DNA of 43,730 nt from NCBI GenBank assembly GCA_902618795.1, contig CACNCF010000007.1, positions 1 to 43,730 of the forward strand. The letters are read 5' to 3'. A program made the translations under genes and the position numbers. The stretch is from an uncultured Prochlorococcus sp. GTDB taxonomy: Bacteria; Cyanobacteriota; Cyanobacteriia; PCC-6307; Cyanobiaceae. Shown piece after piece: positions 22,047-43,730 of this stretch; position 1 is the first letter of the stretch, and every line of letters starts with the position of its first letter. Below the pieces are notes generated by a model. The model ran no database searches. It saw nothing but the letters and a program-made list of their open reading frames with translations, and had not been told where the DNA came from.

Positions 22047-22622
22047 TTGTACAAATATTTAAACAATGAACTTGATGAGCTCAATAGTCTTTTCAAAAAG
22101 ACTGACTCATCTTTTAAAAATAATGTGACTAAACTATCAGATTTAGCAGTTAATTCAATCAACAACAAAGGTAAAATAATATTTTGCGGAAATGGAGGAA
22201 GTGCAGCTGATAGTCAACATTTAGCCGCCGAACTTGTCGTTCGATTCGAGAAATTTAGGAAGTCAATACCTGCTTTAGCATTGACAGTTGATACTTCAAT
22301 AATCACTGCATGTGCAAATGATTATTCATATGATGAGATATTTTCTAGACAAGTTGAATCACTTGGAAAAAAAGAGGATTTGTTAATTTGTATAAGCACT
22401 TCTGGAGCCAGTAAAAACATACACAAAGTAGCAAAGACAGCCAGAGTTATGGGAATTAAAACTGTTTTATTATCATCTATTAAATTTGCAAATAATAACA
22501 ATTCTGATTTATATAATCTCGTTATTGCAGTACCTTCTCTTATTACATCAACAATACAGACTTCTCATATTATGATTGGACATGCTTTATGTCGAGAAAT
22601 TGAGTCACAACTATTGAATTAA
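22047..22622 (+). CDS. gmhA: Sedoheptulose-7-phosphate isomerase (phosphoheptose isomerase)
   Basis: This SIS-domain enzyme converts sedoheptulose-7-phosphate to D-glycero-D-manno-heptose-7-phosphate, the first step of nucleotide-heptose synthesis. The sugar-phosphate site is visible as FCGNGGSAADSQHLAAELV near residue 46, followed by ALTVDTSIITACANDYSYD and LICISTSGASKNI. The zinc/catalytic residues His (SQHLAAEL) and the C-terminal HIMIGHALC are present. Length 191 is normal. The start is a TTG at 22047. It converges on the glycosyltransferase gene with a 4-base overlap of ends. Together with hldE it marks a heptose module. Confidence 0.92.
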   Translation: MYKYLNNELDELNSLFKKTDSSFKNNVTKLSDLAVNSINNKGKIIFCGNGGSAADSQHLAAELVVRFEKFRKSIPALALTVDTSIITACANDYSYDEIFSRQVESLGKKEDLLICISTSGASKNIHKVAKTARVMGIKTVLLSSIKFANNNNSDLYNLVIAVPSLITSTIQTSHIMIGHALCREIESQLLN

Positions 22623-23811: not shown

Positions 23812-25272
23812 ATGAGAGATACTATTATCGTCATTGGCGATGTAATGCTTGATAAATCATATTTTGGAACAGTAAAAAGGATATCACCTGAGGCACCTAT
23901 CCCTATATTTAAACAAGAAAAATTACGTGAGCTTTTAGGCGGTGCTGCGAATGTCGCTTTAAATATAAAAACCTTGGGAGAAAACGTTAGTTTATTTTCT
24001 TCTCATAATCTTGATAACTCTGGTAAATCAATTATAAATTTAACAAAAAAAGAAGGTATTACTTATTTTAGGAGTCCTTTGGGTGACAGACAAACTACAA
24101 CAAAAACAAGATATTGGGCTTTAAATCAACAAGTATCCAGAGTTGATGAGGAAACTTTGGAATCAATTACTAAATTTGAATTTAATTATTTTAAAGAGGC
24201 TTTGTTATCTAATATCCCTAAGGCTAAATTACTTGTAATTTCTGATTATGAAAAAGGGATCATAACAAGAGAAATAATTGAAATGGTTCTTGAATTAGCC
24301 TCAAAAAGCGAATTAGAAGTTATATGCGATCCGAAATCAAAAAATCCAGAAAAATATAGGGGTTGTCATTATTTAACCCCAAACTATAAAGAGTTGTGTG
24401 ATTTAGTTAAAAAGGAATTTTCTGAAAATATTTTTAGCACGAAAGAAGAATTCCTATTTAATTCGATAAAGTTCTTAAAAAAGAAATACAAAATAAGCAA
24501 TCCTATCGTAACTCTAGCTGGAGATGGAATTGCATACATAAAAAAAGACGAATTATGCATTCAGCCAACAGTAAGAGTAAATGTAGCTGATCCAACTGGT
24601 GCAGGTGATTCGGCTTTGGCTGGTCTTGCAACAGCTATTGCAAGAGGATTTAATATTGAAGAGGCAGTAAGGTGGGGTGTTGCATCATCGTCAAATACTG
24701 TTCAAGAAATTGGAGTATCCAGTTGTCAATTATATAAGTTAAAGTCCTCTTTAATTTCTATTCCAAAAGTTGAAAGATGCATTACAAATAATTTGGCTGA
24801 TAGTTCTTTTGGAAATTCAAGAAAAATAGCTCCAATTATTTCAGATATAAGTGAACTTAATAAATTAATTAATACTTTTAGGGAAAATGGATCTTCTGTT
24901 CTTTTTACTAATGGTTGTTTTGATCTAATTCACTATGGACATATAGCAATACTTAAATATGCGTCTAGCATTGCTGATATTGTAATTCTTGGACTAAATT
25001 CAGATATTAGTATTTCAAAAATAAAAGGACCCTCCAGACCTGTGAATGATTTCTTATCTAGGTCTTCAATAGTCACATCACTTTCTTATGTTGATTATGT
25101 AATTCCTTTTGATGAAGAAACTCCTTTTAATATTATAAAAGAAATTAAACCGGATATTCTTTTAAAAGGAGGCGACTATAAAGAAGAGCAAGTTGTTGGT
25201 AAAGAATTTTCTTCTAAAGTAATTATCTTCAAAAGGATAGATGGTTATTCCACAACTAGGTTAATTCAATAG
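23812..25272 (+). CDS. hldE: Bifunctional heptose-7-phosphate kinase / heptose-1-phosphate nucleotidyltransferase (HldE, normal order)
   Basis: This enzyme phosphorylates heptose-7-phosphate at C1 and then activates the product with a nucleotide. The N-terminal PfkB-type kinase (residues 1 to about 330) has VIGDVMLDKSYFGTV, RISPEAPIPIF, LLGGAANVALN and the catalytic ADPTGAGDSALAGL near residues 259-272. The C-terminal nucleotidyltransferase (about 345-486) has FTNGCFDLIHYGHIAIL with the HxGH motif, GPSRPVNDFLSR and the final STTRLI. All key motifs of both halves are present, so full activity is expected. GmhB and HldD, which would complete the ADP-heptose pathway, are not in the window. The start is an ATG. 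Confidence 0.93.
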   Translation: MRDTIIVIGDVMLDKSYFGTVKRISPEAPIPIFKQEKLRELLGGAANVALNIKTLGENVSLFSSHNLDNSGKSIINLTKKEGITYFRSPLGDRQTTTKTRYWALNQQVSRVDEETLESITKFEFNYFKEALLSNIPKAKLLVISDYEKGIITREIIEMVLELASKSELEVICDPKSKNPEKYRGCHYLTPNYKELCDLVKKEFSENIFSTKEEFLFNSIKFLKKKYKISNPIVTLAGDGIAYIKKDELCIQPTVRVNVADPTGAGDSALAGLATAIARGFNIEEAVRWGVASSSNTVQEIGVSSCQLYKLKSSLISIPKVERCITNNLADSSFGNSRKIAPIISDISELNKLINTFRENGSSVLFTNGCFDLIHYGHIAILKYASSIADIVILGLNSDISISKIKGPSRPVNDFLSRSSIVTSLSYVDYVIPFDEETPFNIIKEIKPDILLKGGDYKEEQVVGKEFSSKVIIFKRIDGYSTTRLIQ

Positions 25273-40879: not shown

Positions 40880-41911
40880 ATGAAGGCAGCTATTCTAGTA
40901 GAACAAAAAAAACCACTCATAGTAGACAAAGTATCTTTACCAGAGGAGTTAGATATTGGTCAGGTCCTTATAAAAATTGATATTAGCGGCATTTGCGGAT
41001 CACAAATTGGAGAAATTAATGGTGTAAAGGGTGCAGATAAATATCTACCTCATCTAATGGGCCATGAAGGTTGTGGGACTGTTATTGAAACAGGACCAGG
41101 AGTCAAATTTTTAAAAAAAAATGATTTTGTTGTTTTACATTGGAGAAAAGGTAAAGGTATTCAAGCAGAAGTTCCAAAATATCAATGGAAAGGGAAAAGT
41201 CTTAATGCTGGTTGGGTAACAACATTTAATAGTCATGCAGTAGTCAGTGAAAATAGGTGTACTGTAATTCCTCCAAATACAGACAAGGAGTTAGCAGCTC
41301 TTTTTGGATGTGCAATTACTACAGGTTTTGGGGTAATTGAGAATAATGTGAATTTACAACTTGGTCAATCTATAGTTGTTTTTGGATCCGGAGGTATTGG
41401 ATTAAATATCATACAAGCAGCAAGTTTAAGAAATGCATTTCCTATTATTGCAGTTGATATATTTGATAATCGACTTGAATTAGCAAAAGAAATGGGAGCT
41501 GATTTTTTAATCAATGCAAAAGAAGTTAATGCTAAAGAAGAAATTTTAAAAATTTTAAACAAAAGAGAACTTGATGTATTTATAGATAATACGGGTATTC
41601 CTAAAATAATTGAACTTGGTTATGAAATAACTAAACCAACAGGGAAAGTCGCATTAGTGGGAGTCCCTATGAAAGATCAAAATATTAATATTTTCTCTCT
41701 GCCTTTGCATTTTGGGAAAACTATTTTCGGTTCTCATGGTGGAGAATCTAATCCAAATGTGGATATCCCAAGATATTTAAACCTAATTCAAGAAAAAAAT
41801 CTTCAAATTGAAAAATTAATAACTGGAAGATTTAAACTTGAAGAAATTAATAAAGCCATTGAATTTATGAAAAATGGTCAAAGCGCTGGAAGAATTATGA
41901 TTTATACATGA
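40880..41911 (+). CDS. Medium-chain (zinc) dehydrogenase, surface-sugar cluster
   Basis: This 343-residue protein has the MDR fold. The catalytic zinc ligands are visible as Cys in SGICGSQIGEI, His-Glu in MGHEGCGTVIE, and a third Cys in LFGCAITTGFG. The NAD(P) site is VVFGSGGIGLNIIQAA. The structural zinc lobe with four cysteines, normally after the HE motif, is missing: that stretch reads HWRKGKGIQAEVPKYQW instead. The nearest known types are threonine/sorbitol-type dehydrogenases. It probably oxidises or reduces a sugar or polyol for the next gene, whose ATG overlaps its stop by four bases. Confidence 0.83.
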   Translation: MKAAILVEQKKPLIVDKVSLPEELDIGQVLIKIDISGICGSQIGEINGVKGADKYLPHLMGHEGCGTVIETGPGVKFLKKNDFVVLHWRKGKGIQAEVPKYQWKGKSLNAGWVTTFNSHAVVSENRCTVIPPNTDKELAALFGCAITTGFGVIENNVNLQLGQSIVVFGSGGIGLNIIQAASLRNAFPIIAVDIFDNRLELAKEMGADFLINAKEVNAKEEILKILNKRELDVFIDNTGIPKIIELGYEITKPTGKVALVGVPMKDQNINIFSLPLHFGKTIFGSHGGESNPNVDIPRYLNLIQEKNLQIEKLITGRFKLEEINKAIEFMKNGQSAGRIMIYT

Positions 41912-43404
41912 CTATTTTTTCTATAAAAAAATTTACAGCATCATTTTCAGATTGTATTTTGGCCTATGGTCATTTCGATTCTATTCATCCTGGTCATATA
42001 CGCTATTTAAAATATGCAAAAGAAAAAGGCAAATGTCTTGTTATAGCTTTAAGAGGAGATTTTTTAGTAAATGGCAAAAATAGGTTTCAATTTCCTCAAT
42101 CAGAAAGAGCAGAATCTCTTAATTTATTGTCTATTGCAAATCATATAATCTGTCTTGAGGGTGATGAGTTATATCAATTAGTAGAAAAACTGAAGCCTAA
42201 AATGTTAATTTTTGGAAAAGAATTTGAAAATACAAATGATGTTAATTTAATAAAAGCAATTAATGTTCAAAAAAAAATAAATGGCGATATATTTTTCCAT
42301 GCTGGAGAAATTAATTATGCCTCTGTAGATTTATTATCAGGATCCGAGAATGAGCTTCTTCAAAGAAGAAGAAGTCAATTTTTAGTTGCAATTAAAAGGC
42401 AAAGTATAGATAAGAGAACTTTGCTTTCTTCTTTAGAAAAATGGAAGTCCTCAAAGTTGTTAGTTATTGGAGATACAATTCTAGATCAATATGCAGCTTG
42501 TGAAACGTTAGGTATTAGCGCAGAAGCTCCTGTTTTAGTAGTAAGAGAACTCGCAAAAAAAAATTACATTGGAGGAGCTTCAATTGTTGCTTCTCATATT
42601 GCTGCTTTGGGGGCTAAATGCGATTTCATTTCAGTTGTCGGAGATGATGAAGCAGCTAATTCAGTAAAAAAAAGTACTAATTTAATAAATGTTAATACAA
42701 ATCTAATTGTTGATTCTTCAAGACCTACAACATTTAAGAAAAGATATGTTGTAGAGAATCAGAAACTTTTTAGAGTTAGTAATTTAGAGGATCATTTGCT
42801 GAATAAGGATATAGAAGAAAAAGTAATAAATTTGATAATAGAAAAATCGAAAGATGTTCAGGGCATTGTTGTTTCAGATTTTTTATATGGTTTTATAACT
42901 CCCAAAATAATGGAAACCGTTTATGCAATGTCCTCTAAATATGGATTGAAATTATTTGGGGACTTACAATGCAGTACTCAGGTTGGATCAATAAAAAAGT
43001 ATAAAAATTTTTCATTATTATGTCCTAATGAAAAAGAGGCAAGGATAGCTTTGCAAGATAAAGATTCAGGTTTGGAAATCCTTAGTAATACTTTAATAAC
43101 TCAAACTATGTCTGAGAGATTAATAATGAAGTTAGGCGCGGATGGTTTTATTGCTTACGATAGAGATCAAAATGGAAACTTAAAAAGTCAATCTTTCCCA
43201 GCATTATCTGTAAATCCGGTTGATGTTTCTGGCGCGGGTGATTCACTTTTGGCGTGTATGGGTTGCGGATTGACGAGTAATCAAAATATGATGACTACTT
43301 CTGCTCTAGGATGTTTTGTTACATCTCTAGCTGTGGAGAATATGGGCAATATTCCTGTAACTTCTAATGAAGTAATTTCTAAAATTGAATCTTTTTTAGG
43401 ATAG
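41908..43404 (+). CDS. Reverse-order bifunctional nucleotidyltransferase / PfkB sugar kinase (HldE-like)
   Basis: This 498-residue fusion has a nucleotidyltransferase domain first (residues 1 to about 150; AYGHFDSIHPGHIRYL with HxGH at 27-30), followed by a ribokinase/PfkB domain (from about 178). The kinase half has LLVIGDTILDQYAACETLG, GISAEAPVLVV, NYIGGASIVASHIAALG and catalytic NPVDVSGAGDSLLAC near residue 440. HldE at 23812 has the opposite order. The normal HldE STTRLI motif is replaced by NYASVDLLSG in this transferase, so its nucleotide or sugar preference may differ. The start ATG overlaps the dehydrogenase stop by four bases. The substrate is unknown, perhaps a heptose or other sugar phosphate for a surface glycan. 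Confidence 0.85.
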   Translation: MTIFSIKKFTASFSDCILAYGHFDSIHPGHIRYLKYAKEKGKCLVIALRGDFLVNGKNRFQFPQSERAESLNLLSIANHIICLEGDELYQLVEKLKPKMLIFGKEFENTNDVNLIKAINVQKKINGDIFFHAGEINYASVDLLSGSENELLQRRRSQFLVAIKRQSIDKRTLLSSLEKWKSSKLLVIGDTILDQYAACETLGISAEAPVLVVRELAKKNYIGGASIVASHIAALGAKCDFISVVGDDEAANSVKKSTNLINVNTNLIVDSSRPTTFKKRYVVENQKLFRVSNLEDHLLNKDIEEKVINLIIEKSKDVQGIVVSDFLYGFITPKIMETVYAMSSKYGLKLFGDLQCSTQVGSIKKYKNFSLLCPNEKEARIALQDKDSGLEILSNTLITQTMSERLIMKLGADGFIAYDRDQNGNLKSQSFPALSVNPVDVSGAGDSLLACMGCGLTSNQNMMTTSALGCFVTSLAVENMGNIPVTSNEVISKIESFLG

Positions 43405-43413
43405 GATTATTAG

Positions 43414-43730
43414 ATGAATTTTCTTGTAATTGGCAGTAACAGTTTTAGCGGATCTAATTTTGTAAGTTTCCTTTTGAAAGAGGGTTTTGATGTAGTTGGA
43501 GTAAGTCGTTCAGAGGAACCACATGAATGTTTTTTACCTTATAAATGGGAAAATTCCCAAAAAAATATAAAATCTAATGGTAATTTTTTATTTAAAAAAA
43601 TAAATTTAAATGAAAATATTGAAGAATTGATAAAAATAATAGATGAAAAAAAAATAAACTATGTGATCAATTTTGCAGCTCAAGGAATGGTTGCAGAGAG
43701 TTGGCTAAATCCAACACATTGGTATCAAAC
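43414..43730 (+). CDS. NAD-dependent sugar epimerase/dehydratase, 5' part
   Basis: The frame runs off the window after about 105 residues. It starts MNFLVIGSNSFSGSNFVSFL, a Rossmann motif of extended SDRs, and the NFAAQGMVAESWLNPTHWYQ region matches the corresponding site of nucleotide-sugar 4,6-dehydratases and epimerases. It starts 9 bases after the reversed fusion gene, so it belongs to the same operon. The catalytic YxxxK lies outside the window, so the exact reaction is open. Confidence 0.8.
   Translation, partial: MNFLVIGSNSFSGSNFVSFLLKEGFDVVGVSRSEEPHECFLPYKWENSQKNIKSNGNFLFKKINLNENIEELIKIIDEKKINYVINFAAQGMVAESWLNPTHWYQ

Follow-up and report, generated by a model that had tools for sequence, protein, structure and literature searches.

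The closest described counterparts of the protein considered here are HldE, in which a PfkB-type kinase precedes an HxGH nucleotidyltransferase; HldC and other HxGH heptose nucleotidyltransferases; and the GDP-heptose pathway with HddC. In the available parts of the respective reports, the transferase domains of HldE accept beta- and not alpha-mannose-1-phosphate (PMC10948575), HddC acts on alpha-heptose-1-phosphate (PMC6981941), Lys69 of BpHldC contacts the nucleotide phosphate, with Lys69 and Lys116 assigned to the KG and KGG motifs by order (PMC7993394), and the K663A variant of an HxGH cytidylyltransferase of Plasmodium, altered at an active-site lysine, is practically inactive (PMC6060094); K663 may be the counterpart of the KG lysine. 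The stretch analysed, hereafter the window, comprises 43,730 nucleotides from an uncultured Prochlorococcus sp. (contig CACNCF010000007.1), and it encodes a 498-residue HldE-like fusion of reversed domain order at 41908-43404 (all window coordinates given here refer to features on the plus strand). Pfam placed CTP_transf_like at residues 18-109 (E 4.8e-10) and PfkB at residues 183-482 (E 4.8e-22) of this open reading frame (ORF), whereas the normal-order HldE of the same window (23812-25272; Pfam and NCBIfam), used as the comparison protein, had PfkB at 5-305 and CTP_transf_like at 365-458. An earlier reading of the sequence (the original prediction) had described both this inversion and the retained GAGD loop of the kinase half, and both were confirmed, the loop lying at residues 442-445 (43231-43242). 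It is proposed, at roughly even odds (probability about 0.5), that the fusion acts as the heptose-7-phosphate-type anomeric kinase of a parallel, horizontally spread nucleoside diphosphate (NDP)-heptose-type surface-polysaccharide pathway, its transferase half having been demoted and the activating step passed to a separate RmlA-type sugar-1-phosphate nucleotidyltransferase (SNT).

The transferase half was modelled separately (residues 1-168, 41908-42411; pLDDT 90.7, pTM 0.76), and its predicted fold was nearest to HldC (5xf2; Z 17.7, root-mean-square deviation (rmsd) 2.5 over 129 residues), followed by the Fom1 cytidylyltransferase domain (Z 15.4). Together with HPGH at the HxGH motif (residues 27-30, 41986-41997), this is consistent with an HxGH nucleotidyltransferase of HldC type. 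In contrast to HldC, the TNG motif reads YGH, the lysine of KG..RP is lost at N55-G56 (42070-42075), that of KGG is lost at F102 (42211-42213; leucine in 92% of the 48 members lacking both lysines), and STT has drifted. The best NCBIfam match was rfaE_dom_II (TIGR02199), with 54.3 bits against a cut-off of 181.5, compared with 146.6 bits for the window's normal HldE. The YASVDLL that had been noted in place of the STT signature is present at residues 137-143 (42316-42336), but it occupies the proper place of the ST motif and is a drifted form of it rather than unrelated sequence; 26 orthologues share the consensus YASTDLL, with many variants. Nor does the fusion carry the (F/L)XXGXSTT motif that the available text of a commentary gives for the HENases of Tang et al. 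(PMC11461863), as it reads GEINYASV at that site. The window's normal HldE reads R-I-D-G-Y-S-T-T there, with an arginine five places before STT, a position (STTR5) that the same text links to the use of CTP and UTP besides ATP (PMC11461863).

Two lysine states were revealed among 72 non-redundant fusions, a set from which proteins of 400 residues or fewer were dropped and 12 near copies removed (six short pieces had been dropped before the first motif table). The KG..RP lysine was intact in 18 members, all of which retain the KGG-type lysine as well as two or three serine or threonine residues at the ST motif, and it was lost in 54, the second lysine being lost as well in 48 of these (the window's fusion included) and kept in six. 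A sugar-switch reading of YASVDLL was set aside, as the motif change accompanies lysine loss; because it accompanies the loss of two phosphate-holding lysines and a faster divergence of the whole half, the changed motif is better read as part of a loss. Judged from these changes, the transferase half of the fusion probably no longer performs the activating step. A precedent for a retained inactive HxGH domain comes from Plasmodium, whose ethanolamine-phosphate cytidylyltransferase reportedly has two HxGH domains, one of them inactive, although there the domain is duplicated and not replaced by an enzyme of another fold.

Lysine loss goes together with a separate SNT, counted at 80 bits or more within the fetched locus, which was detected in 47 of the 54 members lacking the KG lysine and in none of the 18 intact ones. 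Where the fusion had 5 kb or more of flank on each side, the SNT was found in 32 of 33 both-lost, 4 of 5 KG-only-lost, and 0 of 14 intact members. The seven lost members without an SNT comprise five with less than 5 kb on at least one side (the window, L046, L069, L091, and L110), plus L101 and L116. When 15 SNT queries were run against the 18 intact loci, L101, and L116, the only match (17 bits) was to a gene of L213 annotated as pseF, and as a control two SNT queries from the window's genome recovered the SNT in 47/47 positive loci. All 49 SNT matches (at least 80 bits, 72 loci) carry GxGxR, a signature of sugar nucleotidylyltransferases including HddC in the available part of PMC6981941. 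The GDP-heptose pathway nevertheless differs, as the kinase here is of PfkB type and the SNT of L034 reached only 73.9 bits against the HddC cut-off of 300 (NF049965), with 79.6, 54.3, 66.7, 76.3, and 56.6 bits for five other cluster SNTs. An HddC-like assignment of the SNT was dropped, the scores fitting a general RmlA/GlmU/MurU-type enzyme, and no GHMP kinase HddA was found among the recurrent neighbour genes scanned, which form part of all neighbours. In a tree of 51 kinase halves (INDEPENDENCE), lysine loss requires three changes, at least two of them by starred branches, and SNTs occur in each of the lost groups, namely a large clade with the window, a clade of L199, L210, and L212, and L190 within a lysine-intact group; 47 of the 51 rows carry both traits, and the 21 of 72 members left out by hand all belong to the picocyanobacterial set. 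The SNT at L199:12971-14137 is a 388-residue protein in which the family matches begin at about residue 156.

The transferase half has also diverged faster where the lysines are gone. The mean transferase/kinase distance ratio was 1.32 in both-lost members (standard deviation 0.14, 1126 pairs) and 1.04 in KG-only-lost members (0.08, 15), versus 0.72 in intact members (0.11, 151) and 0.79 in HldE (0.10, 66). With the neighbouring epimerase as a clock, the transferase half gave 1.481 in both-lost (40 loci) versus 0.905 in intact members (12 loci), and the kinase half 1.130 versus 1.294; none of 300 label shuffles reached the observed ratio difference, and members outside picocyanobacteria gave 1.28. 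The epimerase labels of intact members may include paralogues, which tells against this contrast, and all of these distance figures are descriptive, as the pairs share ancestry.

For the kinase half (residues 172-498, 42421-43401), the evidence points to an HldA-type enzyme. In the AlphaFold model of the fusion (mean pLDDT 90.0, pTM 0.88), this half has a PfkB fold that comes closest to HldA (4e84; rmsd 2.4 over 310 residues, Z 38.1 compared with 31.8 for the top entry outside HldA), and GAGD is in place. The 48 both-lost fusions and 21 HldE/HldA proteins alike conserve S204, E206, P208, K277, R279, and R289 at 100%. The best NCBIfam match was rfaE_dom_I (TIGR02198) with 197.6 bits, below the cut-off of 345 (ribokinase, 62.3 bits), and the window's normal HldE also fell short with 252.3 bits. 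For the HldE equivalog NF008454 (cut-off 521), the fusion scored 169.3 and the normal HldE 334.1 bits, and this cut-off alone is not decisive because the normal-order protein misses it too. In the kinase tree, 21 fusion kinase halves form one clade (support 99/100) on a long stem, apart from 12 HldE, 9 HldA, and two outgroup proteins; in the same tree, neither HldE nor HldA forms a single clean group, four HldE-like genus rows fall separately with PfkB, and the outgroup has long branches. In the transferase-half tree, 12 HldE halves form one clade at 100/100, but the fusion halves are not one group because the RibF outgroup, a very long branch, falls among them; as this tree is badly rooted, the kinase tree was relied on instead. 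The original prediction, that the two architectures 17 kb apart point to two different activated sugars and not to redundancy, gains partial support from the sampled trees, in which the fusion kinase halves and the HldE transferase halves each form a clade of their own, the fusion transferase halves not doing so. Overall, the fusion shares with HldE the two domain families, an HldA-like kinase fold, several HldA/HldE residues, and, in many relatives, GmhA- and GmhB-like neighbours, whereas the reversed order, the separate long-stem kinase clade, the loss of both transferase lysines, and the separate SNT in most relatives' clusters set it apart.

The neighbourhood of the fusion in relatives suggests which steps such a pathway might contain. 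Recurrent genes encode a GmhA-like SIS isomerase, a GmhB-like HAD phosphatase, an RmlA/GlmU/MurU-type SNT, and an FAD oxidoreductase of the L-2-hydroxyglutarate oxidase type, alongside a methyltransferase, a dehydrogenase, a 4,6-dehydratase-like short-chain dehydrogenase/reductase (SDR), an epimerase, and often transketolase-like or E1-like pairs. In the 33 well-flanked both-lost loci (labels of at least 50 bits), the epimerase was found in 33, the SNT in 32, the dehydratase-like SDR in 28 (SDR labels may include other SDRs), the GmhA-like protein in 27, the methyltransferase in 26, the FAD enzyme in 25, the GmhB-like protein in 23, and the dehydrogenase in 22. The previously uncharacterised surface-sugar pathway that the original prediction had put forward therefore gains support in that the neighbours indicate a route separate from HldE at 23812, but it extends beyond dehydrogenase, fusion, and SDR: as the recurrent set adds a GmhA-like protein, a GmhB-like protein, and a second nucleotidyltransferase, it looks like a parallel NDP-heptose-type route. 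In such a route, the GmhA-like isomerase would convert a ketose phosphate to an aldose-7-phosphate, the PfkB half would phosphorylate C1 to give a sugar-1,7-bisphosphate-type product, the GmhB-like phosphatase would trim the distal phosphate, and the SNT would add the nucleotide, after which the sugar could be modified by the dehydratase-like SDR, epimerase, methyltransferase, dehydrogenase, and transketolase- or E1-like pair. The HxGH half, HldC-like in descent, would probably have been demoted in the lysine-less branch, where it would serve in structure, nucleotide binding, or regulation. Beside the sugar genes of L034, L035, L100, L109, L118, and others stand split transketolase-like or E1 alpha/beta-like pairs, which could extend a keto sugar by a two-carbon unit.

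Several observations weigh against the hand-over to the SNT. L101 and L116 are real exceptions, with the KG lysine lost and no SNT seen in their fetched loci, and the SNT trait needs five changes on the 51-row tree. Independent pairs number two on starred branches, both in the expected direction, and three on all branches (sign test, p 0.5), and two or three independent losses are too few for this test to reach 0.05. The window's own SNT was not seen: its contig ends 326 bases past the fusion, and the assembly (1.07 Mb, 38 contigs, 71.8% complete) gave two 26% matches elsewhere. In addition, the kinases of lysine-intact members have themselves diverged from HldA (S204 in 39%, E206 in 44%, and R279 in 61%); these kinases may therefore act on other sugars, and their divergence inflates the simple distance-ratio contrast.

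The beta precedent of HldE and the alpha precedent of HddC further imply that the kinase or the SNT should break precedent, or that the sugar differs. Tentatively, the route may be chimeric, with a PfkB HldA-type kinase (precedent beta) feeding an RmlA/MurU-type SNT (precedent alpha), the HxGH domain rebuilt around H22 (41971-41973) and H131 (42298-42300) as a sensor or a new catalyst coupling kinase output to the SNT, and the hand-over from fold to fold made two or three times.

A competing explanation, which is the reading of the original prediction and appears rather unlikely, is that the HxGH half is still active on a new substrate or nucleotide, with other residues replacing the two lysines, while the role of the SNT is to activate a second sugar in the same polysaccharide. 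The fold is intact in the predicted model, HxGH, R67, and G103 are invariant in the 48 both-lost members, and H22 (98%) and H131 (90%) are newly conserved there, which suggests re-use rather than decay; the half is also not being shed, as it was included in 29/29 matches (E<=1e-30) from 300 genomes of the family. These points speak against simple demotion, but both phosphate-binding lysines are lost, the ST motif has drifted, the divergence is the fastest of the groups measured, and an SNT in nearly all well-flanked both-lost loci exceeds what is expected for an unrelated second sugar. A substrate other than heptose phosphate (another C6-C8 sugar or a ketose), with the GmhA- and GmhB-like neighbours as paralogues from a different route, seems rather unlikely. 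The scanned GmhA-, GmhB-, and SNT-like proteins, like the HldA-like kinase, all score below the NCBIfam equivalog cut-offs, so the sugar may not be a heptose, which is here a best guess, and the fusions have DLQCSSQ where HldA has its DPK segment. Against this, rfaE_dom_I lies far above other sugar-kinase models, the window's normal HldE misses its cut-offs too, and the HldA-type residues are kept. The lipopolysaccharide of two marine Synechococcus strains was reported without heptose in the available text of PMC4515613, a report on two strains and not on the capsule or O-chain of the window's strain; if that applies here, abundant ocean phototrophs would be making a surface sugar not described before. 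Finally, an activated polyol, with the dehydrogenase reducing a ketose phosphate and the HxGH half adding CMP as in CDP-alditol routes, is highly improbable. The zinc dehydrogenase gene does overlap the fusion in the window, glycerol-3-phosphate cytidylyltransferase is among the HxGH relatives, and a CDP-6-glucitol route is known in C. jejuni (available part of PMC10918830), but that route uses other families (PF01128 and PF01370), the dehydrogenase was found in only 22 of the 33 well-flanked both-lost loci, and the kinase and its GmhA/GmhB-like partners would be left unexplained.

Under the preferred reading, in which the fusion works as a kinase and the SNT as the activating enzyme, labelling the fusion as HldE would lead one to expect ADP-heptose in marine picocyanobacteria, although its transferase half is probably incapable of making it. 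The two-state family would also offer a natural experiment on the replacement of a fused catalytic domain by an enzyme with a different fold, nucleotide transfer being predicted for the lysine-intact relatives but not for the lysine-less ones.

The reversed-fusion family comprises 84 full-length members from picocyanobacteria and several other phyla, drawn from long-flank loci (short loci from the genus and family scans were not added), with the search profile and sampling weighted toward lysine-less members. Single-frame orthologues of 47-60% identity occur in genus and family genomes, which excludes a chance fusion. Among 200 same-genus genomes, 30 gave a match at E<=0.001, read from the match table as 17 reversed fusions (own genome counted), 8 HldE/HldA-like kinases, and 5 weak transferase-type matches only. 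A profile search of the phylum sample yielded 5/244 genomes at E<=1e-60, every one in the window's family. A single-protein scan of the genome contigs found no relative, and an alignment scan of them found 54 loci, including records of Polynucleobacter, other betaproteobacteria, SAR116, Leptospiraceae, Bdellovibrionota, Myxococcota, Verrucomicrobiota, and Dehalococcoidia, many of which are metagenome bins whose taxon labels may be wrong. With the starting genomes included, matches at E<=1e-90 were found in 11/235 genomes of the phylum of L118 and 6/349 of that of L085, and matches at E<=1e-85 in 3/240 of that of L117 and 2/58 of that of L108. Two plasmids also carry family matches, and the gene in the same-genus genome G099 is identical (100%) to that on a Prochlorococcus sp. 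AG-347-K18 contig (L034, L067). The patchy spread of the fusion suggests horizontal transfer. Phage carriage was considered and rejected, as a viral contig set gave no relative and a phage collection gave four partial matches, to the kinase half only and none covering 80% of the query. Among the listings returned by searches of an open-access library and the papers cited here, there was no description of a reversed HldE or its gene cluster.

In the window itself, the visible cluster genes are the zinc-binding dehydrogenase (40880-41911, Pfam), the fusion, whose ATG lies within the last 4 bases of the dehydrogenase gene (a 4-base overlap including the dehydrogenase stop), and the start of an SDR of the dehydratase/epimerase family (43414-43730, Pfam), truncated by the contig end at 43730. 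Upstream of the locus lie ribD, ftsH, an ornithine carbamoyltransferase gene, and lexA, and a GmhA-like isomerase (22047-22622; 176.4 bits to NF010546, cut-off 276) is encoded near hldE. Elsewhere in the family, the fusion of L047 (G037:C15:30437-31808) is split over two overlapping frames meeting near residues 211-223, by a frameshift or an assembly error, and that of L018 and L044 (G015) has an open frame listed as 13676 residues, perhaps reflecting a masked stretch. At L111:9768-10592 and L118:10491-11453, fusion clusters include a TIGR04324 'sporadic carbohydrate cluster' 2-oxoglutarate-Fe oxygenase and an NF052581 GSU2086-family protein.

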